Of a stretch of 64,000 nt of DNA, positions 35,178 through 50,540 are shown one piece after another; position 1 is the stretch's first letter; each line of letters starts with the position of its first letter. Under the pieces are notes generated by a model that was not told where the DNA came from, made no database searches, and saw nothing but the letters and a program-made list of their open reading frames with translations. The stretch comes from Puniceicoccaceae bacterium (GTDB taxonomy: Bacteria > Verrucomicrobiota > Verrucomicrobiia > Opitutales > Coraliomargaritaceae): positions 62,001-126,000 of the forward strand of contig PBYS01000098.1 in the NCBI GenBank assembly GCA_002729725.1. The letters are read 5' to 3'. The position numbers were made by a program, and so were the translations under genes.

Positions 35178-36374
35178 TCAGAATCTGTAATTCAGTGATA
35201 TCGCCACCGCTTGGCTGTCGAGATCGTAGCTACCATCGATACTTGACGAAGTCTTATTGCCAGTCAGTTTACGTTCGCTGGCAAAGGCTTGTTGGTAGGT
35301 GATTTGCCAGCTCAGATTTTCGTAGCTGCGGCCTAGGCCGATCGCGAGGAAGTGGCGATCCGAGTCGGGGACGATCGGAAGCAGGAATGAATCGGGCACG
35401 GCGTTTTCGACGAAGGTATAGCCTGCGCTCACTTGCCAGCCATTGTCGAAGTAGCGGGTGAGCCCCAGCTCCCAAATAAAGGCCGACTCCCAGTTGAGTG
35501 TGTAGGCAAAGGGCGTGCCTTTAAGTTCGAGCTCATTTACGCGGTCCCAATTCGTCCAATCCAAATTAAATTCAAAATTCCAGTGCTCGCTGGGACGATA
35601 GGAATAGCCAAAGACTATTGATTCGGGGTAGCTGAAGTCAGCTGTGGTATCGACTGAACTTTGTAAGAGTAATGCGGATACCGCGGGACCTGAAACTGTG
35701 CCGTCGTAGCTAACTTCTGTTTTCGCTTGGTAGTTTAGACCGAAGCTGTGCTGTTCGCTAGGTTGCCACAGGGCGGACAGTGAATAGCCTATTGCACTGT
35801 CTTGACCGTCGAAATTCAATGCATTTGTTTGGATGTCGATGTCCGTGTCGTCAAAGGACAGCCCCGCTGCTAAGGAAAAGCTCTCTGAGATCTGCCACGC
35901 GACCACTGCGTGGTACTTCACGTAAGTTAAGTCCGCTTTGTGAGGCACGGCGGATTCTGGGTTGGGGAAAGCTGCTGTAAATGTTGCGTCATCGCCCCAG
36001 TCGGTGCCGAGTGCAAAGGGTGCATACATGCCAAATCCGAGTGCGATCGGAGTGTCTTTGAACTTATGGGAAATGAATGCGCTGGGGATGGCTTGATAGC
36101 TATCGTCTAGGGAGTCGTTACCACTGGAGCTGCTATATTCGTAGCCGAGCGAAATCGTGAACACATTGCCTTGAACTTGCGTGCCTTCGACTTGTGTGAG
36201 GCCTGCAGCGTTGTAGAACACGGCGGAAGGGTTGTCGGCCGTGGCGGTAAATGCATTGCCACGTGCGGTGGCAAAGGGATCAATGAAAGCGACACGTGTG
36301 GCTGCGGCATCGGTGGATACGTAGGCGAGCAAAGAAAGACCAAGGGTGAAGAGAGGGCGTTGCAATGGTTTCAT
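35178..36374 (-). CDS. FadL/TodX-family outer-membrane transport protein
   Basis: Outer-membrane beta-barrel of the long-chain fatty acid/hydrophobic-substrate channel family (398 aa). The N-terminus has a signal peptide (to about residue 24). The FadL hatch motif NPSAVFYNAAGLT (about 48-60) follows; alternating amphipathic strands fill the rest, and the protein ends in the aromatic-terminated strand AVAISLNYRF typical for barrel assembly. It begins only four bases after the histidine kinase gene at 36379 on the same strand, so the two are an operon. That pairing, next to fatty-acid signalling genes, suggests import of a fatty-acyl compound (inference). Confidence 0.92.
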   Translation of the reverse strand: MKPLQRPLFTLGLSLLAYVSTDAAATRVAFIDPFATARGNAFTATADNPSAVFYNAAGLTQVEGTQVQGNVFTISLGYEYSSSSGNDSLDDSYQAIPSAFISHKFKDTPIALGFGMYAPFALGTDWGDDATFTAAFPNPESAVPHKADLTYVKYHAVVAWQISESFSLAAGLSFDDTDIDIQTNALNFDGQDSAIGYSLSALWQPSEQHSFGLNYQAKTEVSYDGTVSGPAVSALLLQSSVDTTADFSYPESIVFGYSYRPSEHWNFEFNLDWTNWDRVNELELKGTPFAYTLNWESAFIWELGLTRYFDNGWQVSAGYTFVENAVPDSFLLPIVPDSDRHFLAIGLGRSYENLSWQITYQQAFASERKLTGNKTSSSIDGSYDLDSQAVAISLNYRF

Positions 36375-36378
36375 GTAA

Positions 36379-38406
36379 TTAAGCGTGGATACGGTAGGAG
36401 GGGAATTCGATTTCGATGTCCCAGTTGCGTTCTTGAGTTCGGGAATTGAGTTTCAGCTCACCTTGATGCTCGGTAATCACTTTTTGAGCGACGGAGAGTC
36501 CTAAGCCTACGCCGGTGTGACGCGTCGTATAGAAAGCTTCGGTTGCCTGCTTGACTAAATCTTCTGTCAGGCCGGTGCCTCCGTCACGTAAGCGGACCAG
36601 ACGCTTGCCCGTGAGATCCTGGCAGATCTCAACTTGAATGATTTGTGCGTCTGGATTGGCTTGAATCGAATTTAAGAATAGTTCTTCGAATGCATGGGTG
36701 AGCGCCTCAGGATTGGCTTCTAGCGTGAGTGACGCTAAGGACTCTAGCTGGTTTTCAATTTTTAGTTCCGCGAGTGTATTGTCTGTCTGGGTACGAGCGC
36801 GTTGGAATGCCTTTTGGATGATAACATTGAGTTGCACTTCACTCCCCCCTGCCTGAGAAGATTGCGCCATATAGAGCATTTGCTCGCTGAGGCGTTTGAT
36901 TCTCGCGGTTTCTTTGAGCATGGCCGATTTAAGCGAAGCTTGAAACTTGGGTTGTTGGATCTTTTTGTCGATTAATTGAGCATGTGTCGATAGCGGCACC
37001 AGAGAATTGCGTATCTCGTGGGCGAATCGCTCGGCAATCAGACTGATTGTTTGGTTCTTGGTATCTGATCGAGCGCTTTCTTTGCTGGCTTCAATTTTAG
37101 TGAAGTCTTCTATTATGAGCATCGTCGGGCGCGGTAGGCGCATCAGTTCCCCCTTTTGGCTGAAGGGGAAAATCGAGACTTGATACACCTCGTCTGGTTC
37201 TAAGCCGTCGATTTTAAAAGGCTCTAGCAGTTCACCTTTCTCGACCGCACGGTGCACTGGCTTCGCCAGTTTGGGGGGAAGTTCTGCGAATTCGATACGA
37301 CGGTCGGGATTGTTTTGACCGAGATCAAGAAAGCGCTTGGCCGCGTCGTTCATGTAAAGAATGTCTAGATTTTCACTGAAGACGATCGCACCACTCGACA
37401 TGGAGTGCATGACGTTTTCGATTAATTGCCCATGGTGCGCAAGTTCGCTGTGTAGGCGGCTATTGCGGATTGCCAAGCCTAGTTCTTCCATCAGCAGGTA
37501 GAGTAGCTCCAATTCGTCTTCGGTGTAGTCGCGACCAGTCACGGGGCCATTTAATACCGCCAAGCCAATGATTTCTTCTCGATCTGTGATCGGGATCGCT
37601 AAGTGGCAGCCGAGGACTGAGAACTCTTTAGCGCTCCCGCTATTACCGTGTGTGAATTGGCTGCGAGTACCGCTTTCTTTGTGTAAAATACGAGGATATT
37701 CTGTCAGCTCGCGCCCGATGCCAACTTCTCGACTGAGTTGAAAGCAGTCCACCAAGTCGGAGGGCAAGCCGAGTGAGGCAATGCATGTGAGATGTTTCGA
37801 TTGCTTATTTTTGACTAAGGATTGCTTGGCGGAACTCTCTAGAAAGATGCCGATGCGGCTGAAACTGATGTGTTCTCGCAGCTTGAGGATGAAGTGCTGG
37901 GTAAAGGCTTTATAATCCAAACTGAAGCTCAATATGTGCGAGAGATCGCGCAGTACGTTCAGAGTCGATGTCGCGTGGCTGATATTGGAGCTCCGCTGTT
38001 GTGAATGATTGCCCCAGTCCTGCATACTACTGGGCGTGTTGCCTTGTTTGTTTTCGTGTTGATTCATCAACACGCGAGCGAGTGTTTTTGAGGGGATCGG
38101 CTCCGCGAAATAAAGATCGGCACGATTCTCAAAGGCAGTGTTTTCTAGGCTTGAGTTATACTCGGGTGTTAAGACGACGATTTGGATCTGTTCTGTGAGC
38201 TCGCGTATTTCGCAGAGCGTGCGCTTGAGCTCTAGCTCTGTGCCTTCCGAGTAAATGACCACTGCATCAAAGGCGCTGCGCGCGAGCGAAGATTTCGCTT
38301 CAAGTGCTGATTGCCGTATGACGATTCGGTCCTCTGGAGCCGAAAAAACCTCCCGTAGCTTAGCTGGGATGGATGGCTCGTCTCTAATGAATAGAAAATG
38401 ACTCAC
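36379..38406 (-). CDS. GAF/PAS sensor histidine kinase with N-terminal receiver-like domain
   Basis: Soluble 675-residue kinase. Residues about 1-115 have a receiver-like fold without a clear phosphoacceptor pattern (DAVVIYSEGTELELKRTL replaces the usual DxxMP), so it is probably a non-phosphorylated input. A GAF domain (about 155-310, GIGRELTEYPRILH and LAIPITDREEIIGLAVLN) is followed by a PAS domain (about 330-425). The kinase core has H-box RFAHEIRNSLVPLSTHAQL (about 475), N-box FEELFLNSIQ, G1 RDGGTGLT and G2 TGVGLGLSVAQKVI. It is cotranscribed with the FadL-like gene and divergent from the LuxD-methyltransferase operon. It has no adjacent response regulator of its own. Confidence 0.9.
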   Translation of the reverse strand: MSHFLFIRDEPSIPAKLREVFSAPEDRIVIRQSALEAKSSLARSAFDAVVIYSEGTELELKRTLCEIRELTEQIQIVVLTPEYNSSLENTAFENRADLYFAEPIPSKTLARVLMNQHENKQGNTPSSMQDWGNHSQQRSSNISHATSTLNVLRDLSHILSFSLDYKAFTQHFILKLREHISFSRIGIFLESSAKQSLVKNKQSKHLTCIASLGLPSDLVDCFQLSREVGIGRELTEYPRILHKESGTRSQFTHGNSGSAKEFSVLGCHLAIPITDREEIIGLAVLNGPVTGRDYTEDELELLYLLMEELGLAIRNSRLHSELAHHGQLIENVMHSMSSGAIVFSENLDILYMNDAAKRFLDLGQNNPDRRIEFAELPPKLAKPVHRAVEKGELLEPFKIDGLEPDEVYQVSIFPFSQKGELMRLPRPTMLIIEDFTKIEASKESARSDTKNQTISLIAERFAHEIRNSLVPLSTHAQLIDKKIQQPKFQASLKSAMLKETARIKRLSEQMLYMAQSSQAGGSEVQLNVIIQKAFQRARTQTDNTLAELKIENQLESLASLTLEANPEALTHAFEELFLNSIQANPDAQIIQVEICQDLTGKRLVRLRDGGTGLTEDLVKQATEAFYTTRHTGVGLGLSVAQKVITEHQGELKLNSRTQERNWDIEIEFPSYRIHA

Positions 38407-38580
38407 GAAATAATTAGTAGAGCTAGGGAAAATACGTCCATAGTTTAATGCGGTGCAACTATAATGTCTAATTTGTATTAGTTGCCATTATTTCATTAAG
38501 TTTCATTACAATTATTTTTTATTTGTATGTTGGCGGCCCTATGAATCTGATAGGAGATTAATTATTGAGCAATTTTATAG

Positions 38581-40263
38581 ATGACTACAAGTGCTACTGA
38601 TCACTCGACTATTCAAAGTAAAGTCGTCGTATTTCCATCTCGCAGCGGTAAGAAGATGGTGGGCTTCATTGATGCATTGAGCACGGCGGCGCCAGATGCG
38701 CCCTTTGTGGTGATGGCGCCCAAATATGGACAGTCTAAAAAGAACAACTTACAAATGTCCTATGTCTTTGCGCAAAACGGGTTAAGGGTTTTACGGTTTG
38801 ATCACACCAATCACATCGGAGAGAGTGAAGGAGAGATCGTCGATTACACACTGCCGGGTGCGGTGGCCGACATTCTGGCTGCACTTGATTATTTAGAAAC
38901 CGAGTACGGTCACTCGAAAGTCATTTTGCAGGCGAACAGTATGTCCGCGCGCTGTGCCATACGCGCCGCGAGCTTGGACGCTCGGATAGAGCGCTTGATT
39001 TGCCTTGTCGGTATTGTCGATTTCCGGGAGACGATTACACTCATTTGCCAAAAAGATATCATTGATGTGTATGTTTCCGGGGTGGAACAAGGTGTGGGCG
39101 ACATCCTGGGGCATGATGTGAATATCGATCAATTTTTGAAAACTAGCGTGGATGAGAATATGCACGATAGTGTGGGCACTCGAGATGACTTTTTGAAAGC
39201 AAAGTGCGATGTGTTCATGTTTGCTGCAGAAAAAGATGCATGGGTAGATTTCGAGAAATTAAAGCAATTGGCTGAGGGCGCGAATCGAGTGCAAATACGT
39301 GAAGTTAAGGGCGTGATGCACGAAATGATGGAGAATCCACAGGCGGCGCTAAAGACTATATTTGCTGCGGTATTCGTTGCGAAGCATGGACGCTTCCCGC
39401 GCGAAGAAGAGTTGGAGGATGTAGCTGAACCCAATAAACGAGAGGTCTTTAAGCAGAATAAAGTGGAGCGTAATCGCTTGCGTGCGGTCGCACCGAAGCG
39501 TGAGTCTGAGGCTGATTTTTGGCATAGCTACCTCGATAAGTATAAAATGCTGGAGTCGGTTAGCGCGTATAAAGATTACCTCAAACTGATTGCGGATTGC
39601 CTTGGCAGCCCTACTGAGGGGGCGGTCTATTTGGACTGTGGTTGCGGCAATGGTATGTTTGGTGCTTGGTGTTTGCGTGATTTGATCGCGCAGTCGGCTG
39701 TGAACTGGAAAACACCCGCTACGTATTTTGGTCTCGATTTGACTGGTAAGGGGCTTTCTGAAGCCGCGCGCAGGCACTCTACGATAGCAAATGAGGGCGG
39801 TGGACCAGCTCTGAGGAATCTTAATCGGATGTATTACCGTTTTGATCTGGATCGTATCGATGCGAGCCAAGAGAAGCTCTTACCCTTAGCGGATCAATCT
39901 GCAGATCGTATTTGCTGTAGTCTTTTAATTTCTTATCTGAAAGATCCCGTCTTTCTGGTGAAGGAATTATACCGCGTTTTGAAACCTGATGGGCGTATCA
40001 TTCTTTCCAGCATGAAGCCTTATTGTGATCTTTCGCTTATTTATAAGGGCTTTTTAGGCGAGACCAATAGTGAGGAGGCTGTGGAGTCTGCGCGTAATTT
40101 ATTGAGCGCTGCTGGAGTTTTACAGCTCAAAGAGGATGAGGGGCATTACATTTTCTATAGCGAAGATGAATTGGTCGAAATTATGCGACAAGGAGGCTTT
40201 GATAAAACACATGTCTTTAGGTCCTTTGGGGAGCAGGCAAACTTGGTGTCTTCTATCAAATGA
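38581..40263 (+). CDS. LuxD-like acyl hydrolase/transferase fused to SAM-dependent methyltransferase
   Basis: A 560-residue two-domain enzyme. The N-terminal half (about 15-275) is an alpha/beta hydrolase of LuxD (acyl-ACP thioesterase/transferase) style: nucleophile region NSMSARC (Ser120), catalytic Asp219 in EKDAWVD and His about 247 in GVMHEM. The C-terminal half (about 310-560) is a class I SAM methyltransferase with motif I LDCGCGNGMFGAW (about 350), the acidic FGLDLTG and a later VLKPDGRIILSS. A fatty-acid methyl ester would be the logical product: acyl release, then O-methylation. It is first in an operon with two histidine kinases and a GAF/PAS protein; the next gene overlaps its stop by four bases. 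This resembles PhcB of Ralstonia in logic; the fusion itself is unusual. Confidence 0.82.
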   Translation: MTTSATDHSTIQSKVVVFPSRSGKKMVGFIDALSTAAPDAPFVVMAPKYGQSKKNNLQMSYVFAQNGLRVLRFDHTNHIGESEGEIVDYTLPGAVADILAALDYLETEYGHSKVILQANSMSARCAIRAASLDARIERLICLVGIVDFRETITLICQKDIIDVYVSGVEQGVGDILGHDVNIDQFLKTSVDENMHDSVGTRDDFLKAKCDVFMFAAEKDAWVDFEKLKQLAEGANRVQIREVKGVMHEMMENPQAALKTIFAAVFVAKHGRFPREEELEDVAEPNKREVFKQNKVERNRLRAVAPKRESEADFWHSYLDKYKMLESVSAYKDYLKLIADCLGSPTEGAVYLDCGCGNGMFGAWCLRDLIAQSAVNWKTPATYFGLDLTGKGLSEAARRHSTIANEGGGPALRNLNRMYYRFDLDRIDASQEKLLPLADQSADRICCSLLISYLKDPVFLVKELYRVLKPDGRIILSSMKPYCDLSLIYKGFLGETNSEEAVESARNLLSAAGVLQLKEDEGHYIFYSEDELVEIMRQGGFDKTHVFRSFGEQANLVSSIK

Positions 40264-42407
40264 TTGCGTATCTAGTCGTCAGTTCCTTTCTGATTTCTTT
40301 GTTGTCGCTATTTTTCCTAGTCGCTGTCATCGCGAAGGGGAATCTCTATTTTAAAGGGCGCAACCTCGCCTTTTGCTTTTTTAGTTTTTCGATTTTTGTA
40401 TGGTCACTCGGGCACATGATGTGGCTGGTTTCGAGCGAGCGGTCGGATGCATTTTTTTGGGTACATGTGCTGGTTGCGGGCTCTATTATGGTGCCTTATG
40501 CTTATTTTCACTTTGCTGTAAATTTGACGGGGCGTTTTTATTTACAGAGGCATGTGATTGCAGGCTATGCGATTGGAGCCATACTGCTCTGTTTTAATAT
40601 TTCAGATTTTGTGGTCGTGGACCTTGAGCCGAGGGGAGGCTTTGAATTCTGGCCTGTGCCAGGTAGTATGTTTTTTCCCTACATCGGCGGCTATATCTTT
40701 ATGGTGATTTTTGGATCTGGTTTGCTTTTTTCAGAATACCGACGTGCTGAAATCGATAAGAAGAATCAGTTGCGCTATATCACCTTTGGCACCGTGATTG
40801 GCTTTTTAGGGGGGACGACAAATTTCTTTTTGTGGTTAGATATACCCATCGCTCCGTTCGGACATGCCGCAGTTATTTTCTATATTTTAGGGCTGGGGTA
40901 TTCGATGTTGAAATTCAGAGCTTTGGATTTTAGTGAGATGTCCTTTCGCGTATTTGGTTTAATTGTGATCGCGATTATTTTTTCTGGTATCACATCGTTT
41001 GGCTTAGTGGCACTGATGCATTCGATTTATGATGATTTTTATCCTGATCATGTGCTGTTCTGGTGGGTGCTTTTTAGTCTGTTATCGATCTTTCTTTTAG
41101 CGCTGGGGCCCTATGTGAATGATCTTTTCAACCAATTTCTCCATGACCGTTTCCTCGCTAAGCGGTTTGCGTTTCGGGCAGACTTGCGTGATTTGTCGGA
41201 ACAAGTTGATTTGGAGGGCGATTTAGAGGAGCAGTTTAACTATGTCGTCGGGCGGATCTCCGAAGTGCTGTCCATTGCAGACGTGGCACTGTATACACGC
41301 TCGATTCATGACTTCGACTTCGTTTGCCGTGGTTCCAATGGTTCACGTAAGTGGTGCCCCCGTCTTAGCCCCGAGCGAATTGACTTTTTACTAGATGCTT
41401 TTGAGCGGCATGCGAAATCTTTTCATGTGGAAGAGGCCATTCTAGCTTCCCAAGACTTTAAGATGGCATATTTCAGTCAGGGGATTGAGCGGCGCATCCT
41501 TTGGCCGGAGGATATTGTCGTGCCCGTGCGCGGACGCTTTGAATGTTATGGATTTTTGGTCTTAGGCAAAGGGAAGCACCAAACCGTGCTGGGAGAGGTG
41601 GACTACTTGTTGGTCGAGAATATTTGTTCGCAACTGGGCTTATCGATTAAGATGCGTGAGATCGAGCAAGGTTCGAACCAAGTCGAGAAATTGGTCACAT
41701 TAGGGACGATGGCGGCGGGCTTATCGCATGAATTACGCAACCCTTTGGTTTCGATTAAAACCTTAGCTTCGCTGTTGAAGAAAAAGCCCGAATCATTGCG
41801 ACTCGATCCGAGCTTTAGTGAGACGGTGCAGCGGGATGTTAAGCGAGTGATCTCAGTCGTGGAAGGGGTGTCCGCATTTGCGCATAATACGGATGGTTCG
41901 TTTCGTGCAGTGCAGGTGCAGGATGTTTTAGCTGAGGCCTTGTCCATTGTAGAGCCTAACTTACAGACGGAGCGGATCGAGGTCGCTGTACATCACTCGC
42001 AGGAATTGCCTCAGTTAGTGGGGGATTCGGAGCAATTAGTGCAAGTTTTTCGCAATCTGCTGGAGAATTCAATCAATGCGATCTCCGAGTGGAGTGAGCG
42101 CAATGAGCCCGGGCAGATTACGATTGTTACCGATCTGAAAACGGGGCGAGATTCAGAAAATGGGCATGATTGGTTAATTGTCGAATGTAAGGATGATGGC
42201 CCAGGGATTCCTAAAGATTTGCAGAAGTTTATCTTTGAGCCATTTGTTACTTCCAGAGATACTGGCACGGGCGTGCGTACTCGTGGGACAGGCTTAGGCT
42301 TGGCCATTGTGACTAAAATTATTGAACGTCATCGCGGTAATATTACGGTGAGTTCGATTTTAGGTCGGGGGACCGAATTTACTGTCTCACTTCCCGTTGT
42401 TAAATAA
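40260..42407 (+). CDS. Multi-TM sensor histidine kinase (PhcS-like)
   Basis: Inner-membrane kinase of 715 residues. The N-terminal third holds about nine hydrophobic helices (first at 2-26, last at about 260-290), a 7TM-type sensor region without a large periplasmic domain, suited to a lipophilic ligand. A GAF-like domain (about 315-460) follows. The kinase core has H-box AGLSHELRNPLVSIKTLASLL (about 480), N-box FRNLLENSINAI, G1 CKDDGPGIPK and G2 RGTGLGLAIVTKI. It overlaps the methyltransferase gene (ATGA) and is followed after nine bases by the GAF/PAS gene. By position it is the receptor of the operon; ligand identity is inferred, not shown. Confidence 0.88.
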   Translation: MIAYLVVSSFLISLLSLFFLVAVIAKGNLYFKGRNLAFCFFSFSIFVWSLGHMMWLVSSERSDAFFWVHVLVAGSIMVPYAYFHFAVNLTGRFYLQRHVIAGYAIGAILLCFNISDFVVVDLEPRGGFEFWPVPGSMFFPYIGGYIFMVIFGSGLLFSEYRRAEIDKKNQLRYITFGTVIGFLGGTTNFFLWLDIPIAPFGHAAVIFYILGLGYSMLKFRALDFSEMSFRVFGLIVIAIIFSGITSFGLVALMHSIYDDFYPDHVLFWWVLFSLLSIFLLALGPYVNDLFNQFLHDRFLAKRFAFRADLRDLSEQVDLEGDLEEQFNYVVGRISEVLSIADVALYTRSIHDFDFVCRGSNGSRKWCPRLSPERIDFLLDAFERHAKSFHVEEAILASQDFKMAYFSQGIERRILWPEDIVVPVRGRFECYGFLVLGKGKHQTVLGEVDYLLVENICSQLGLSIKMREIEQGSNQVEKLVTLGTMAAGLSHELRNPLVSIKTLASLLKKKPESLRLDPSFSETVQRDVKRVISVVEGVSAFAHNTDGSFRAVQVQDVLAEALSIVEPNLQTERIEVAVHHSQELPQLVGDSEQLVQVFRNLLENSINAISEWSERNEPGQITIVTDLKTGRDSENGHDWLIVECKDDGPGIPKDLQKFIFEPFVTSRDTGTGVRTRGTGLGLAIVTKIIERHRGNITVSSILGRGTEFTVSLPVVK

Positions 42408-42416
42408 TTGCTTTAT

Positions 42417-43847
42417 ATGATTGAACATACTACTCAGACTTCCGGTTCTTCTAAGGCTATACCTAAGGGCTTGATTCCTTTCCGTCGATTCGCGGCGGCA
42501 ATGAGTGAATTCAATGATTTTGATGCGTTTCGATCTGCACTCGAGCGTATTGTTTCCGAGGATACGGATTATGCAGGCTTCTTGGAATTAGATACGGATA
42601 TGCGCTCGATTCCCGATGAGGACGTCGGCGAGCACTTTGTCATGGATAGTTTGGTCGTACCATTGAGTTCTGGAGAGGATCAGGGCTATATACGATTTTC
42701 GGGCAACGAGCAGGGGAGGCCTTTTAATACCGAGGACTTGATGTGGATTGGCGCGATCAGTGAGTTTGTATCGCTTGCGTATGCGAATGCTAAGACGCAT
42801 CGTCAGGGGCGAGACAAGTTGCGTATATTTGAATATCTGATCAATCAATTGCCACTCGGAATCGTTTGCTTGGGAGGGTCGAGCGATTTGATTATTAAGA
42901 ACAAATTGGCGACCCGGTTGCTGGGTACTTCAGGCGCAGATCTGTTGCGTTCTGCGCTTGCGGAGCAAGCATTGAAGTCGCAGGAGTCGCTGCGCTTGCA
43001 TATCGAAGTCGAAGGGAAGCTACTCTATGCGGAAGCACGCCGTTTAAAGATTGAGGCTGGAAACGCCGTGACGGCTTTTGTGCTGCATGATTTGAGCGCG
43101 CAGCGTGAGAGACTATTATTACAGGTGGAGCGTTCCGTATTTCGTGCCGAATCTCGCGGCACTTCTTGGACGGTCGCAGTTTTAGAAGATCGCTCCGAGG
43201 CAGGGCGATTGCTGCGAGCGTTAAAAGTTGCCGCAGATCCCTTAGGTCTAGATGTTAGTTCTTTTGCCGCATTAGATGCGTACTCTTGTGCCTGTATCTT
43301 TACGGCTAAATCACCACGCAGTGTGCGCTATTTACTTCAACGTGCGCTTGCGCATTGCCTGGATCCGGAGCAGACGGCCGGGGCCTTAATATCGCAAATA
43401 GATCAGGAGGATGAGGCCTTGGCCCAGTCTTTGATTCAGGCGGCCTGTGCAGATTTTCAACCGTTGGAGCAATTATTACGGCCTGTTATGCTCGTGTTGG
43501 ATCCTTATCCAGCGGTCAGTGAGGCGCTTGAGTTACTTGCGGGAGAGTTCTGTTGCTTCAAGCCAGTCGAAGGAGTGGCTGAAGCGATTTTTCTGATTCA
43601 GAGTGGTGAGTTTGACGGCATCTTTCTTGATGTAGATGCCTATGGAGAGGATGCGAGTGATTTGGAACGCTTGAGAGCTGTAGGCATTAAAGCTGGAGCT
43701 GGTTTTCGCCTTTATTATATGACGCACATGCAAGCAGCTATGGCTCAGTTGAAATTTGACTTGAGCGTGAATTCTACAGTCCTTGAAAAACCTTTTGATT
43801 CGGGGCTGATTCTGGAAGCTTTACGCTTACAGTTTGATTTTGCTTGA
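42417..43847 (+). CDS. GAF/PAS protein with degenerate C-terminal receiver
   Basis: A soluble 476-residue protein of the signalling operon. A GAF-like domain (about 10-130) and a PAS-like domain (about 135-225, IFEYLINQLPLGIVCLGG) are followed by an unrecognised middle domain (about 225-360). The C-terminal receiver-like domain (about 362-476, VMLVLDPYPAVSEALELLAG) has an Asp in GIFLDVDAY where the phosphoacceptor would be and a Lys in LEKPFDSG, so it may still be phosphorylated, but it lacks the usual acidic pair near its start. No kinase core or DNA-binding domain is present. The ATG at 42417 is preferred over the TTG at 42408. It may be a scaffold or phospho-relay protein, in the place of PhcQ. 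Confidence 0.78.
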   Translation: MIEHTTQTSGSSKAIPKGLIPFRRFAAAMSEFNDFDAFRSALERIVSEDTDYAGFLELDTDMRSIPDEDVGEHFVMDSLVVPLSSGEDQGYIRFSGNEQGRPFNTEDLMWIGAISEFVSLAYANAKTHRQGRDKLRIFEYLINQLPLGIVCLGGSSDLIIKNKLATRLLGTSGADLLRSALAEQALKSQESLRLHIEVEGKLLYAEARRLKIEAGNAVTAFVLHDLSAQRERLLLQVERSVFRAESRGTSWTVAVLEDRSEAGRLLRALKVAADPLGLDVSSFAALDAYSCACIFTAKSPRSVRYLLQRALAHCLDPEQTAGALISQIDQEDEALAQSLIQAACADFQPLEQLLRPVMLVLDPYPAVSEALELLAGEFCCFKPVEGVAEAIFLIQSGEFDGIFLDVDAYGEDASDLERLRAVGIKAGAGFRLYYMTHMQAAMAQLKFDLSVNSTVLEKPFDSGLILEALRLQFDFA

Positions 43848-43901: not shown

Positions 43902-45029
43902 ATGCTAGCCCTTGCATCAGAGAAAACAATCAAGCGTTTATTGGTCGTCGATGACGAAGAAGGGCCGCGTCAGTCTTTGAATATGATTTTTGGCGATGAC
44001 TACGAGGTGAGTATCGCTAGTTCGGGGGAAGAAGCGCTTGAGTTTGCCCGTGATACTTCCTTTCATGTGGTGGTTACAGATATACGTATGCGAGGAATCA
44101 GTGGGATTGATGTCTTGCGAGAAGTTAAAAAGATTGATCCGCATACTGAAGTAGTCGTGCTCACTGCATATGAGACTTTGGAGACAGCTCGCCAAGCGAT
44201 TAGCCTTGGGGCATCGGAGTATTTGAAAAAGCCCTTTGACTTGGATCATATTCAAACTGTCGTTGAGGAGTGTTTTCAGAGCTACTTTTTGAAGTCTAAT
44301 CATGAGACAGTGATTCGTGAAGATGTAAACGCTGCTAAAAATAATTTTCTAGAAATTGTCAGCCACGAGTTAAATACGCCCATGCATGGGATTCTTGGTT
44401 TTTTGGAATTGCTAGATGGCACGGATCTCGATCAGGAGCAGGCGGAGTATGTAGATACGATACGAGCGTGTGGCTTAAAATATTTTGAGCATGTGCAGGA
44501 CATTTTGACGTATGCGAAGATGACGATGACTGAAAGTGAGATATCGCTGAACGCCTTTAATCCAGCAACTCTAGTCTTGAAGTTGATCGCGGAGTCCGAA
44601 GTTCCTGAAGCGGTTGAAGTCTTGCCTGACATTCCAGAAGATTTACTTGAGCTTGTGAGTGGTGCGGAGCAAGAAATTCGTATTGTTGTGCGTAAACTGC
44701 TGTTGAATGCATTTAAATTTACCACGAAGGGGCATGTTGCCGTTTCGGTTCGCTATGCACCATTACCTGGCGATCAGGCTTGTTTAACTTTTGTGGTGGA
44801 GGATACAGGTGAGGGAATTAAACCTGAGCTCTTAGAACACGGGAGAATTTTTGATGCCTTTACGCAGGGGGATTCTTCCAGTCGTCGCTCTCATGAAGGC
44901 CTTGGTCTTGGTTTGTCGCTTTGTAAAAGTATTGCTGATCGCTTAGGTGGAAGCATCAGGGTGCAAAGTGTGCTCGGAGAGGGGTCGGTCTTTACCTTCG
45001 ATTGTACTGTTCATACCAATTTTGCTTAG
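43902..45029 (+). CDS. Receiver-histidine kinase hybrid (PhcR-like)
   Basis: A 375-residue response regulator whose output domain is a histidine kinase. An N-terminal receiver (about 12-125) has the acidic pair VVDDEE, phosphoacceptor VVTDIRMRG, Thr in VVLTAYE and the Lys in LKKPFD. The HisKA domain has H-box [21 protein letters not shown] (about 155), N-box [10 protein letters not shown]1 [10 protein letters not shown] and G2 [20 protein letters not shown]. Receiver-then-kinase order without other domains is what Ralstonia PhcR has. It is fourth in the operon, 54 bases after the GAF/PAS gene, and ends 84 bases before panD. Confidence 0.88.
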
Positions 45030-45693: not shown

Positions 45694-46332
45694 ATGAAAC
45701 TTAGTACACACATACGACTCATCGCGGCCTCTGTCGCGTTTCTAGCAACTGCAGTTCAGTCCTACGCGATTGGATTCATCGACATTCCCGTTGAGAATCA
45801 AGTGGGCACGGGCGCGAATCAATCGGGCTTGATCATCGACTTCAACGATGGCGCGACTACGGAGCGCTACGTCTTCCAATACAATTGGGACGGTGCCGCC
45901 GACACAGTTTCTGGCGCGGAAATGCTGATTGATGTCGCCGCAGCCATTACAGATTTGTCGATCTTCTATGCTGGTACGGCTGCGGACGGCTTTTATATGA
46001 CGCAGCTGAGTTATGCGACGCAGTCGGAGACTAATGGAGATTTTTCAACTAATTTTGATTACTGGGGCTATTTTGTGGCTGGAGGCTCCGCAAGTGGGAA
46101 CTCCGTGAGTGGTGCCGGCGAGACGGCGCCCGATTCGATTGATGGCTCACCTGTTGGAGCTGGGGAATTGAGTTATGGCTCTCCCGGTCGCTTTATTGCC
46201 GATAACTCCTGGGATGTATGGAGTTTCGGACCTTACGAAACCAGCTATGCGGTTCCTGAGGTTTCGAGCTATGCGCTCTTGGCGGGTATGTTGAGCCTTG
46301 GATTTGTATTGAGCCGTCGTCGTCAATCTTGA
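45694..46332 (+). CDS. PEP-CTERM-type surface protein
   Basis: A 212-residue secreted protein. It has a signal peptide (to about residue 25, cleaved near SYA). A beta-rich domain contains GTGANQSGLIIDFNDGATTE and YVFQYNWDGAAD, a pattern I associate with small surface proteins beside TonB-type transporters. The C-terminus has the sorting signal VPEVSSYALLAGMLSLGF followed by SRRRQS, the Pro-Glu motif, hydrophobic helix and arginine cluster read by exosortase. Exosortase must be elsewhere. Its stop overlaps the TTG start of the TonB receptor gene by four bases, so the two are coupled. Metal or corrinoid capture at the surface is a reasonable guess. Confidence 0.8.
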   Translation: MKLSTHIRLIAASVAFLATAVQSYAIGFIDIPVENQVGTGANQSGLIIDFNDGATTERYVFQYNWDGAADTVSGAEMLIDVAAAITDLSIFYAGTAADGFYMTQLSYATQSETNGDFSTNFDYWGYFVAGGSASGNSVSGAGETAPDSIDGSPVGAGELSYGSPGRFIADNSWDVWSFGPYETSYAVPEVSSYALLAGMLSLGFVLSRRRQS

Positions 46333-48434
46333 AGCGAGCCCTTTCAGTTTCAGAGAGCGTGAGCTGTTTCCTGCGTTTGGAATGCTTGCGCTCTCTTTGC
46401 GTTTTCGCCTGTTGCATGGGCGCGATTTTTGCGGCACCCTGTATCGGCTGGGCCGATGAGGTGCAGCTGTTAGGTGCCTATGTGGTGCAAGCTAGGCATT
46501 TCGATCAAGAGCCCTTGGATGTGCCTGTAGATGTTGTGCGGATCGAGCGCGAGTCGATCGAGCGTTCGTTAGCGTCTTCCGTTCCGGAGCTTTTAGAGGC
46601 GGAAGCCAATCTCTATTTTTCGACAGTCTCTGGTTTTACCTCAGTCGATATGCGCGGCTTTGGGGAGGGCAGTGGCTTACGCAGCCTGATTCTAGTCGAT
46701 GGGCAAGTGCTCAATCCCGCTGATATGGGACGAATTAATTGGGAGCAAGTGCCGCTCAACTCAGTGGAAAGTATCGAGGTCTTAAGAGGGGGGCAAAATG
46801 TCCTCTATGGTGACAAGGCATTGACGGGAGTGATCAAGATTGAAACACGCCGAGCGACTGAAAGCAGTTTGAATACAGTTGCTCGCATAGGCAGTTTTGG
46901 GCAGACGCAGGCTTCGCTCGCCGCAGAACTCGGAGAGGGCACTTGGAGCTTGCGAGCGGGACTGGATCGCACGGAGTCGGAGGGCTACCGAGCGGCCTCA
47001 GAAAGTGAATCACGCAGTGGCTATCTGGCGGCTGGCTATACTTTAAAAAATGGTGACGACGTGGATCTACGCTTGAGTATGGGCGAGGTAAATTTGGGCT
47101 ACCCAGGCGGCTTGGAGGAGGCACTCTATCAGAGTGATCCGCAGAGCTCCACCTCTTCGGGCTTAGATGGCAGCGATACGCGCTATTTGACGCTAACTAC
47201 TCGCGCCGATGGACAACGTGACTGGGGCAGCTGGGAATTGCTGGCAGGCTACGAGCGTCGCTCGATTGAGTCCTCTTTCTATGCGACTGAAAGTTTTAAT
47301 CTCAATCAGCCTGAGCGTTACAACCTGAAACCACGGCTGCGCTTCGAGCGAGATCTGACTGCGTTGATCTTAGGCTTTGATTTGAGCTACGATACTTTGA
47401 CGAATCAACGCTTTCTGACATCGGAGCGCCGCTATGTGCTCGCTCAAGCGGAGCTCGAGGAGAGCCGTGTCAGCCCTTATTTTTTATTAGAGAGAGCGCT
47501 GTCCGACTCGCTCAGCCTGAGTGGTGGCCTGCGTCAAGAATGGGTGAGTTACCAAGTCGATTCTGAGACTTATGATGCGACACAATTGACCCCGACTCGC
47601 ACGACCAATCGAGGCGAGTTGCCGAACCCAAATTATAAGTCGCCACCGGATACGGTCGAAGAAGGCACTTTCAATGAGCGCATCGATCAAAATGGCTTTG
47701 CGGCGGAGTTTTCTATGAACTGGCGCTTCCACCATAACTGGAGCTTGTGGGCGGGCTATGATCGTGTGTATCGCTATCCGGTTTTTGACGAGCGCGCTTC
47801 CTACCAAGGAGCCATACAGGCGCAAGAGGTGGCCGATTCCTTGGATGCGGAGGAGGGCAATAATTACGAACTGGGCCTAAAGTATATTCAGGGGCGGCAT
47901 GAGTTTTTCGCGACGGCTTTTTTGCTCAAGATGAAAAACGAGATCGCCTACGACGATACGGTGGTCGGCCCGTCGGGAACCGGTCTCAACGTCAATCTCG
48001 GTCCCGTAGATCGCTACGGTGTGAATCTATCGTACCGTTATGATCGAGGCCATTGGGGCTACTCGTTGCAAGTGAACTATCTCGAAACGAAGCTTCGATC
48101 CGGCGTCGGAGACGGCAATCATGTGCCCTTGGTGCCGCGCTTCGGTGGCGTCAATCGTGTCTGGTGGGCGCCGGTCGACTGGCTGGAATTGCAGCTGACG
48201 CATCGCTACTTAGGGGAGCGCTATCAGGGCGGAGATCTAAGTAATTCACTGCCTCAAGTCGATGCCTATCATCTTTTCGATGTGCAGGCTGAAGCGCGAG
48301 TCTCGGAGCATTGTAGCGTCTTCTTTGTGGTGAACAATGCCTTCGATCAGCTCTATGCGGAAAGTGCCAGTTACGAGCTCTATTATCCGGGAGATGGGCG
48401 TTCCTTTGAGTTGGGCGTGAAGCTTAATTTTTAA
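46329..48434 (+). CDS. TonB-dependent receptor
   Basis: Outer-membrane active transporter of 701 residues. The TTG at 46329 gives a signal peptide (about 1-42, ending near GWA). The plug domain (about 50-170) contains VDMRGFGEGSGLRSLILVDG and IEVLRGGQNVLYGDKALTGV, typical plug signatures. The rest is a beta-barrel ending in the aromatic-terminated SFELGVKLNF. It resembles BtuB/siderophore receptors in general; the ligand cannot be read off. Start chosen because it overlaps the upstream stop (TTGA) and restores a full signal peptide. Second gene of the uptake operon. Confidence 0.9.
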   Translation: MKRALSVSESVSCFLRLECLRSLCVFACCMGAIFAAPCIGWADEVQLLGAYVVQARHFDQEPLDVPVDVVRIERESIERSLASSVPELLEAEANLYFSTVSGFTSVDMRGFGEGSGLRSLILVDGQVLNPADMGRINWEQVPLNSVESIEVLRGGQNVLYGDKALTGVIKIETRRATESSLNTVARIGSFGQTQASLAAELGEGTWSLRAGLDRTESEGYRAASESESRSGYLAAGYTLKNGDDVDLRLSMGEVNLGYPGGLEEALYQSDPQSSTSSGLDGSDTRYLTLTTRADGQRDWGSWELLAGYERRSIESSFYATESFNLNQPERYNLKPRLRFERDLTALILGFDLSYDTLTNQRFLTSERRYVLAQAELEESRVSPYFLLERALSDSLSLSGGLRQEWVSYQVDSETYDATQLTPTRTTNRGELPNPNYKSPPDTVEEGTFNERIDQNGFAAEFSMNWRFHHNWSLWAGYDRVYRYPVFDERASYQGAIQAQEVADSLDAEEGNNYELGLKYIQGRHEFFATAFLLKMKNEIAYDDTVVGPSGTGLNVNLGPVDRYGVNLSYRYDRGHWGYSLQVNYLETKLRSGVGDGNHVPLVPRFGGVNRVWWAPVDWLELQLTHRYLGERYQGGDLSNSLPQVDAYHLFDVQAEARVSEHCSVFFVVNNAFDQLYAESASYELYYPGDGRSFELGVKLNF

Positions 48435-50180: not shown

Positions 50181-50540
50181 ATGACGCAGCAGCGAGAAGT
50201 CATCATGTCCGTGATTGAAGCTTCGGGGCGTCCATTGACGCGCGAAGAAATCGTGAAACTGGGCCGCCAGCAGATTGCGCGGCTCGGCTCGGCCACCGTG
50301 GATCGTGCGATTCGCGACTTGGTGAGTAATTTTCAGCTCATAGGGGTGGAATTTCCCGGGCAGCCTAAGCGCTATGAGCCGCCTGCGGAGTATGCGCACC
50401 CGCACTTTATTTGCCGAGAGTGTGAAAAGGTGTATGACCTGCCGATTAAGATGCAGCTGCCTAAGATTGAGCCTCCTGTCGGTTTTGATATTTCCGGTGG
50501 CGAGGTTATTTATTCGGGCAAGTGTCCCGATTGTCGCTGA
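50181..50540 (+). CDS. Fur-family metal-responsive repressor
   Basis: A 119-residue Fur/Zur/PerR-family regulator. The N-terminal winged helix (about 1-75, with ARLGSATVDRAIRDLVSNFQ as recognition helix) is followed by the dimer/metal domain (about 76-119). That domain carries HPHFICRECEKVYDL and KCPDC, the structural Cys4 zinc site. The C-terminal regulatory metal ligands are fewer than in Fur, so iron versus zinc cannot be decided. Three bases after the surface-protein gene, it closes the four-gene operon and is likely to regulate it (inference). Confidence 0.9.
   Translation: MTQQREVIMSVIEASGRPLTREEIVKLGRQQIARLGSATVDRAIRDLVSNFQLIGVEFPGQPKRYEPPAEYAHPHFICRECEKVYDLPIKMQLPKIEPPVGFDISGGEVIYSGKCPDCR

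Follow-up and report, generated by a model that had tools for sequence, protein, structure and literature searches.

Phc quorum sensing is a precedent for the relay of an acyl signal (PMC8578825, PMC11960443), and the distribution of phc genes has been reported as restricted (Betaproteobacteria; PMC10653808). The phcBSRQ operon of Ralstonia begins with a methyltransferase gene, followed by a sensor kinase gene and then by genes for a receiver-kinase hybrid and a receiver protein, both without a DNA-binding domain, and it follows the logic of a fatty-acyl methyl-ester signal (PMC8578825). For the outer membrane, the precedent comes from rhizobia, in which the uptake of long-chain AHLs is mediated by FadL (PMC9938287).

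The window (the whole 64,000-nucleotide stretch of Puniceicoccaceae DNA analysed here) holds a set of six genes arranged in two divergent groups, the coordinates of which are collected in Table 1. The first-pass annotation had placed the FadL gene four bases after a kinase gene, with both pointing away from an acyl-signal operon, and the ORF coordinates agree, the spacing of 4 bp covering positions 36375-36378. We consider it fairly likely that this FadL/kinase pair is one half of a self-contained six-gene lipid-signal system. The complete set probably makes a fatty-acid-derived signal, readmits it by a dedicated channel and relays it through three linked kinases.

Table 1. Features of the six-gene set and of its divergent intergenic region, in window coordinates.
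Feature	Coordinates	Strand	Details
FadL/OmpP1-family outer-membrane channel, distinct subfamily	35178..36374	-	398 aa; Toluene_X, AlphaFold model, clade
Soluble histidine kinase: receiver-like, GAF, PAS, HisKA (His463), HATPase_c	36379..38406	-	675 aa, GTG start
Divergent intergenic region	38407..38580	.	174 bp, 71% A+T; no motif common to relatives
LuxD-like acyltransferase/thioesterase fused to class I SAM methyltransferase (fusion)	38581..40263	+	560 aa; triad Ser120-Asp219-His247
7TM (HisKA_7TM) membrane histidine kinase, His490	40260..42407	+	profile matches
GAF/PAS-like N-terminal region with C-terminal receiver-like domain (GAF/PAS/receiver)	42408..43847	+	sequence comparison
Receiver-histidine kinase hybrid without DNA-binding domain (Asp60, His155) (receiver-kinase)	43902..45029	+	FadL side in most relatives

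The plus-strand operon resembles phcBSRQ in that a methyltransferase comes first and a sensor kinase second, with a receiver-kinase hybrid and a receiver protein after them, and it would share the fatty-acyl methyl-ester logic. The individual components differ. The sensor is here a 7TM-GAF kinase with its histidine at position 490, whereas the phospho-histidine of Ralstonia PhcS lies at position 230; the receiver protein has its receiver C-terminal of GAF/PAS, whereas PhcQ consists of a receiver and an uncharacterised C-terminal part (PMC11960443, PMC6989110); and the window set has a GAF/PAS kinase and a FadL that are extra to phcBSRQ. We describe the system as resembling Phc in design, as judged from gene content, and not as a Phc member. 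The PrsK/PrsR pair of XrtA/PEP-CTERM systems offers a further likeness, in a membrane kinase with C-terminal HisKA/HATPase domains and in the NtrC-type partner of one relative (G136), but assignment to PrsK/exosortase was rejected on scores far under the family cut-offs.

The fusion protein matched Acyl_transf_2 (7e-20; 72 bits against a cut-off of 20.3) and Methyltransf_23 (3e-12). Its N-terminal part aligned with the Vibrio harveyi myristoyl-ACP thioesterase LuxD (1THT) across the catalytic triad, the residues of which are invariant among fusion orthologs, and the modelled N-terminal half reproduced the 1THT fold with a TMt of 0.83. Because its NCBIfam LuxD equivalog score is far under the cut-off (66 against 420 bits), we regard this part as a LuxD-like domain and not as LuxD proper; unlike LuxD, it is fused to a SAM methyltransferase and has no adjoining lux genes. 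A tblastn search against plasmids returned a sole match, LuxD on a lux plasmid. The genome yielded no HisKA_7TM protein besides the membrane kinase that follows, and the receiver-kinase retains both its Asp and its His. No DNA-binding domain was recognised by domain profiles in any product of the six-gene set. The Asp of the receiver-like domain in the GAF/PAS/receiver protein is kept in the window and in L066 and is a Glu or another residue in most relatives; the candidacy of this protein as an LqsR relative was rejected, PDB having given just a weak kinase match. Elsewhere in the window, a gene for a short secreted protein (45694-46332), with a PEP-CTERM-like tail scoring just below the family cut-off (15.4 against 16 bits), is followed by genes for a TonB-dependent receptor (46329-48434) and a Fur/PerR-like protein (50181-50540).

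On the minus strand, the Toluene_X Pfam profile covered residues 22-397 of the channel protein (6e-41; 140.7 bits against a cut-off of 29.7), the N-terminus of which is signal-peptide-like. Its AlphaFold model is of moderate confidence (pLDDT 69, pTM 0.71), with low confidence in the N-terminal hatch region. A Foldseek comparison placed E. coli FadL closest to this model (TM up to 0.78 at 14-18% identity), and the hydrocarbon channels TodX, TbuX and CymD gave TM values of 0.60-0.66. Where E. coli FadL has its N-P-A motif, the window protein has NAA, that of L066 has NSA and most relatives have NPA; the motif was treated as a variable feature that does not define the family. By profile and model, the predicted protein is a member of the FadL/OmpP1/TodX channels, with a putative role in hydrophobic-substrate transport. 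The resulting tree places the FadLs of this system in a single clade (100/99), separate from the other FadL of the window genome.

It is at this channel that the main rival reading begins. Growth substrates (fatty acids and hydrocarbons) are the main cargo of known FadL members, and two members of the system clade, those of G033 and G008, lack such a kinase next to them. The set might accordingly be a nutrient or lipid-homeostasis module. Fatty acids or hydrocarbons from the surroundings would then enter by FadL, the kinases would respond to lipid supply or to the state of the membrane, and the acyl enzymes would serve to remodel or detoxify fatty acids instead of producing a signal. We consider this unlikely: three kinases and a methyltransferase are unusual for catabolism, LuxD-type chemistry combined with a methyltransferase would be expected to yield a capped product, and the gene content is Phc-like.

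No membrane segment is predicted in the kinase encoded beside FadL. GAF, PAS, HisKA and HATPase_c domains were matched, several of them under the Pfam gathering cut-offs, and the H-box R-F-[AS]-H-E-I-R-N is invariant among aligned orthologs save for its one A/S position. The GTG start is supported by the other fusion-linked orthologs, which use GTG at the same aligned position. The N-terminal receiver-like domain, absent from the first-pass description, has lost its phospho-acceptor Asp and signature Lys in all fusion-linked genomes. Both residues are kept in the relatives from one GTDB family (f24) and in G050, in which this domain looks phosphorylatable.

Orthologs of the fusion were found in 11 genomes, all genome counts given here describing a sample of genomes and not a census. 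In eight of these (G000, L066 (Puniceicoccaceae), L067=G028, L068, G246, G401, G279 and G291), the kinase-FadL pair divergently adjoins the fusion operon, so that the two operons do remain adjacent in related genomes. The eight genomes represent at least three families. The arrangement is unlikely to be due to chance, because it recurs at approximately 30-60% protein identity with flanking genes that differ between families. In L068, one continuous frame spans kinase and FadL. In the remaining three genomes, all of family f24 (L069=G106, L070=G042 and L071=G119), the kinase gene is found on contigs other than that of the fusion; it adjoins FadL in G042 and G119, and the FadL of G106 is on yet another contig. 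A 3.3-kb contig of G119 (L051) carries a second kinase-FadL pair, nearer to that of the window than is the other copy in its genome; this second pair may be a paralog or a binning contaminant.

The position of the receiver-kinase gene ties the two sides of the gap together. This gene lies 3' of FadL in nine genomes (G028, L068, G246, G401, G279, G291, G042, G119 and G050), the FadL of G279 having been located by tblastn and HMM searches, whereas in the window and in L066 it closes the fusion operon, after the GAF/PAS/receiver gene. Since it occurs on either side, we consider both sides to be one system. The change of side may partly reflect replacement rather than movement, as the kinase part of the protein falls into two subtypes. 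In G106, G024 and G096, the kinase adjoins the receiver-kinase without an intervening FadL. The first-pass statement that the kinase has no adjacent regulator is therefore misleading, given the receiver-kinase directly 3' of FadL in relatives, the NtrC-type regulator of G136 and the receiver-like domain of the kinase itself.

Across seven linked genomes, the six proteins have pairwise distances that correlate with one another (0.61-0.92), a pattern that could also arise from shared species history alone. The split contigs of G042, G106 and G119, a single family, would fit an adjacency that is mostly historical, the two neighbouring two-component systems having separate functions and simply being passed on together. 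We find this very improbable, since these three genomes still possess both halves, the linkage recurs in several families with unrelated flanks, the receiver-kinase gene switches sides, and the sensing set survives exchange of the synthase (see below).

The first-pass annotation had also proposed that the AT-rich gap coordinates both operons as a shared control region, which the comparison does not bear out. The A+T content of the gap lies in the top 0.03% of 174-bp segments of the window; the corresponding gaps of relatives range from 44 to 75% A+T, and AT-richness is not conserved. Gap length varies from 85 to 222 bp across the eight divergent-adjacent genomes, and no 8-10-mer is common to at least four of the eight loci. 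The window gap contains a single weak sigma-70-like match, on the minus strand. Promoter-like matches numbered 17, against 12.7 +/- 2.6 in shuffles. A conserved promoter or operator was rejected on the basis of these k-mer and shuffling results.

In the class as sampled, the kinase profile was matched in 52 of 384 genomes (E<=1e-60) and the fusion profile in five of 384. We read 20 kinase neighbourhoods from other orders. Four of them (G402, G284, G222 and G456) present the gene order ketoacyl synthase, 7TM kinase, kinase, FadL and receiver-kinase, which is also found within the window's own order in G050. G136 has the same gene set with the first two genes in the opposite order and with a gene for an NtrC-type regulator separating kinase from FadL, and G349 has kinase, FadL and receiver-kinase alone, on a short contig. 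Among the 20, five more have a FadL within 10 kb in another arrangement, and no FadL was seen in nine. The regulator of G136 (L139, 9815-11305) is an NtrC-type sigma-54 response regulator within the kinase-FadL operon, and is a candidate for the missing DNA-binding output.

The kinase-FadL pair was thus found away from the fusion operon in nine genomes (G042, G119, G050, G402, G284, G222, G456, G136 and G349), against eight at it, and taken literally the pair is independent of that operon in about half of the cases. It is not independent of acyl-signal genes, because eight of the nine pairs share their cluster with a ketoacyl synthase gene, accompanied in six by the same 7TM kinase; the link to acyl-signal synthesis is consequently general. 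Of ten cluster ketoacyl synthases, nine group in a single clade (100/100), apart from the FabF-like genes that these genomes also carry; the exception, that of G136, falls on the FabF side of the tree. No member of this dedicated clade was found in the fusion genomes G000, G028 and G246, the best matches there falling among FabF genes. The FabF-like nature of the relatives' ketoacyl synthases would suit a nutrient or lipid-homeostasis role, but the conserved members of the clusters included no recognisable gene for beta-oxidation or for an acyl-CoA synthetase.

An ICMT/PEMT-type methyltransferase gene precedes the cluster genes in G050 (where it was located by tblastn and HMM searches), G222, G456, G234 and G136, and its placement suggests that synthase-type systems too may make a methylated product. 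At three loci, this membrane methyltransferase gene lies directly 5' of the dedicated ketoacyl synthase gene (L133, 3889-4452; L137, 4002-4667; L138, 3820-4485).

Since kinase, FadL and receiver-kinase recur without the fusion, beside a ketoacyl synthase and 7TM kinase, FadL is, as judged from gene neighbourhoods, part of a putative lipid-signal module with an exchangeable synthase. Taken together, the compared loci show one co-inherited module. Its sensing and uptake half is kept, and the enzyme that produces the acyl compound is swapped: some genomes have a ketoacyl synthase, often accompanied by an ICMT-type methyltransferase, and others the LuxD-methyltransferase fusion. The first-pass interpretation is partly supported: its proposal of FadL-mediated uptake beside signal synthesis and sensing stands in this broader form, with ligand and direction of transport both putative.

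The kinase tree resolves the fusion-linked kinases as one clade (100/100), enclosed with f24 and G050 in a supported group (100/100); f24 is placed as sister to the fusion-linked kinases with weaker support (90/77). In f24 (G042, G119 and G106), the synthase gene lies beside the kinase gene and the fusion module elsewhere, and on sequence grounds the family looks like an intermediate between synthase-type and fusion-type systems. We infer a synthase-first direction of exchange, which depends on the midpoint root of the tree.

The window set sits between pheA and panD. These two genes are neighbours, with the site empty, in two genomes of the same genus (G033 and G049) and in G090. In G100, a C-terminal fragment of FadL abuts a C-terminal fragment of the receiver-kinase between pheA and panD (L065, 7157-8012), with FadL codon 251 against receiver-kinase codon 243, apparently the trace of one deletion that removed the entire system. 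G079 retains an intact FadL beside panD, together with the tail of a receiver-kinase, and has lost the kinases and synthase; this solitary FadL is a further point for the nutrient reading. Ancestral presence in the family followed by repeated loss is favoured by these remnants at the pheA-panD site. A recent mobile insertion was rejected on the same evidence, although flanks differ between families.

For the lipid-signal reading, we envisage that the fusion would draw its acyl chain from acyl-ACP or acyl-CoA and methylate that chain; the product, a fatty-acid methyl ester or another acyl signal of a similar kind, would leave the cell. Exogenous signal would recross the outer membrane via the dedicated FadL, much as rhizobial FadL is tied to uptake of a long-chain acyl signal; that signal is an AHL, whereas the window FadL is of a distinct subfamily encoded with signalling kinases (PMC9938287). 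The inner-membrane 7TM kinase, the soluble GAF/PAS kinase encoded beside FadL, or both, would sense the signal and feed the receiver-kinase and the GAF/PAS/receiver protein. As none of the six proteins has a DNA-binding domain, these two would control an unlinked regulator.

FadL might instead be a homeostasis route that limits extracellular signal by re-capture, and not an uptake step needed for sensing. A Sinorhizobium fredii fadL mutant has raised extracellular long-chain AHLs with intracellular levels close to wild type, as re-capture would predict, but the same mutant is defective in the uptake of exogenous long-chain AHLs (PMC9938287). The tight pairing of FadL with a cytosolic kinase also fits uptake for sensing, and we regard re-capture as quite improbable.

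A literature search did not turn up any account of such a system for the Verrucomicrobiota. To our knowledge, known lipid quorum-sensing operons such as phcBSRQ have not been described with an entry channel of their own. We tentatively propose a class of lipid quorum sensing new to description in this phylum, in which a fixed module of FadL, GAF-PAS kinase, 7TM kinase and receiver-kinase would be paired with synthases that can replace one another: a ketoacyl synthase with an ICMT-type methyltransferase, or a LuxD-methyltransferase fusion. The crossing of the outer membrane by hydrophobic signals has been little studied, and a FadL conserved within a signalling module opens this step to genetic testing. 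Furthermore, exchange of the synthase would offer a natural experiment on the adaptation of a set of sensors to a new acyl signal.
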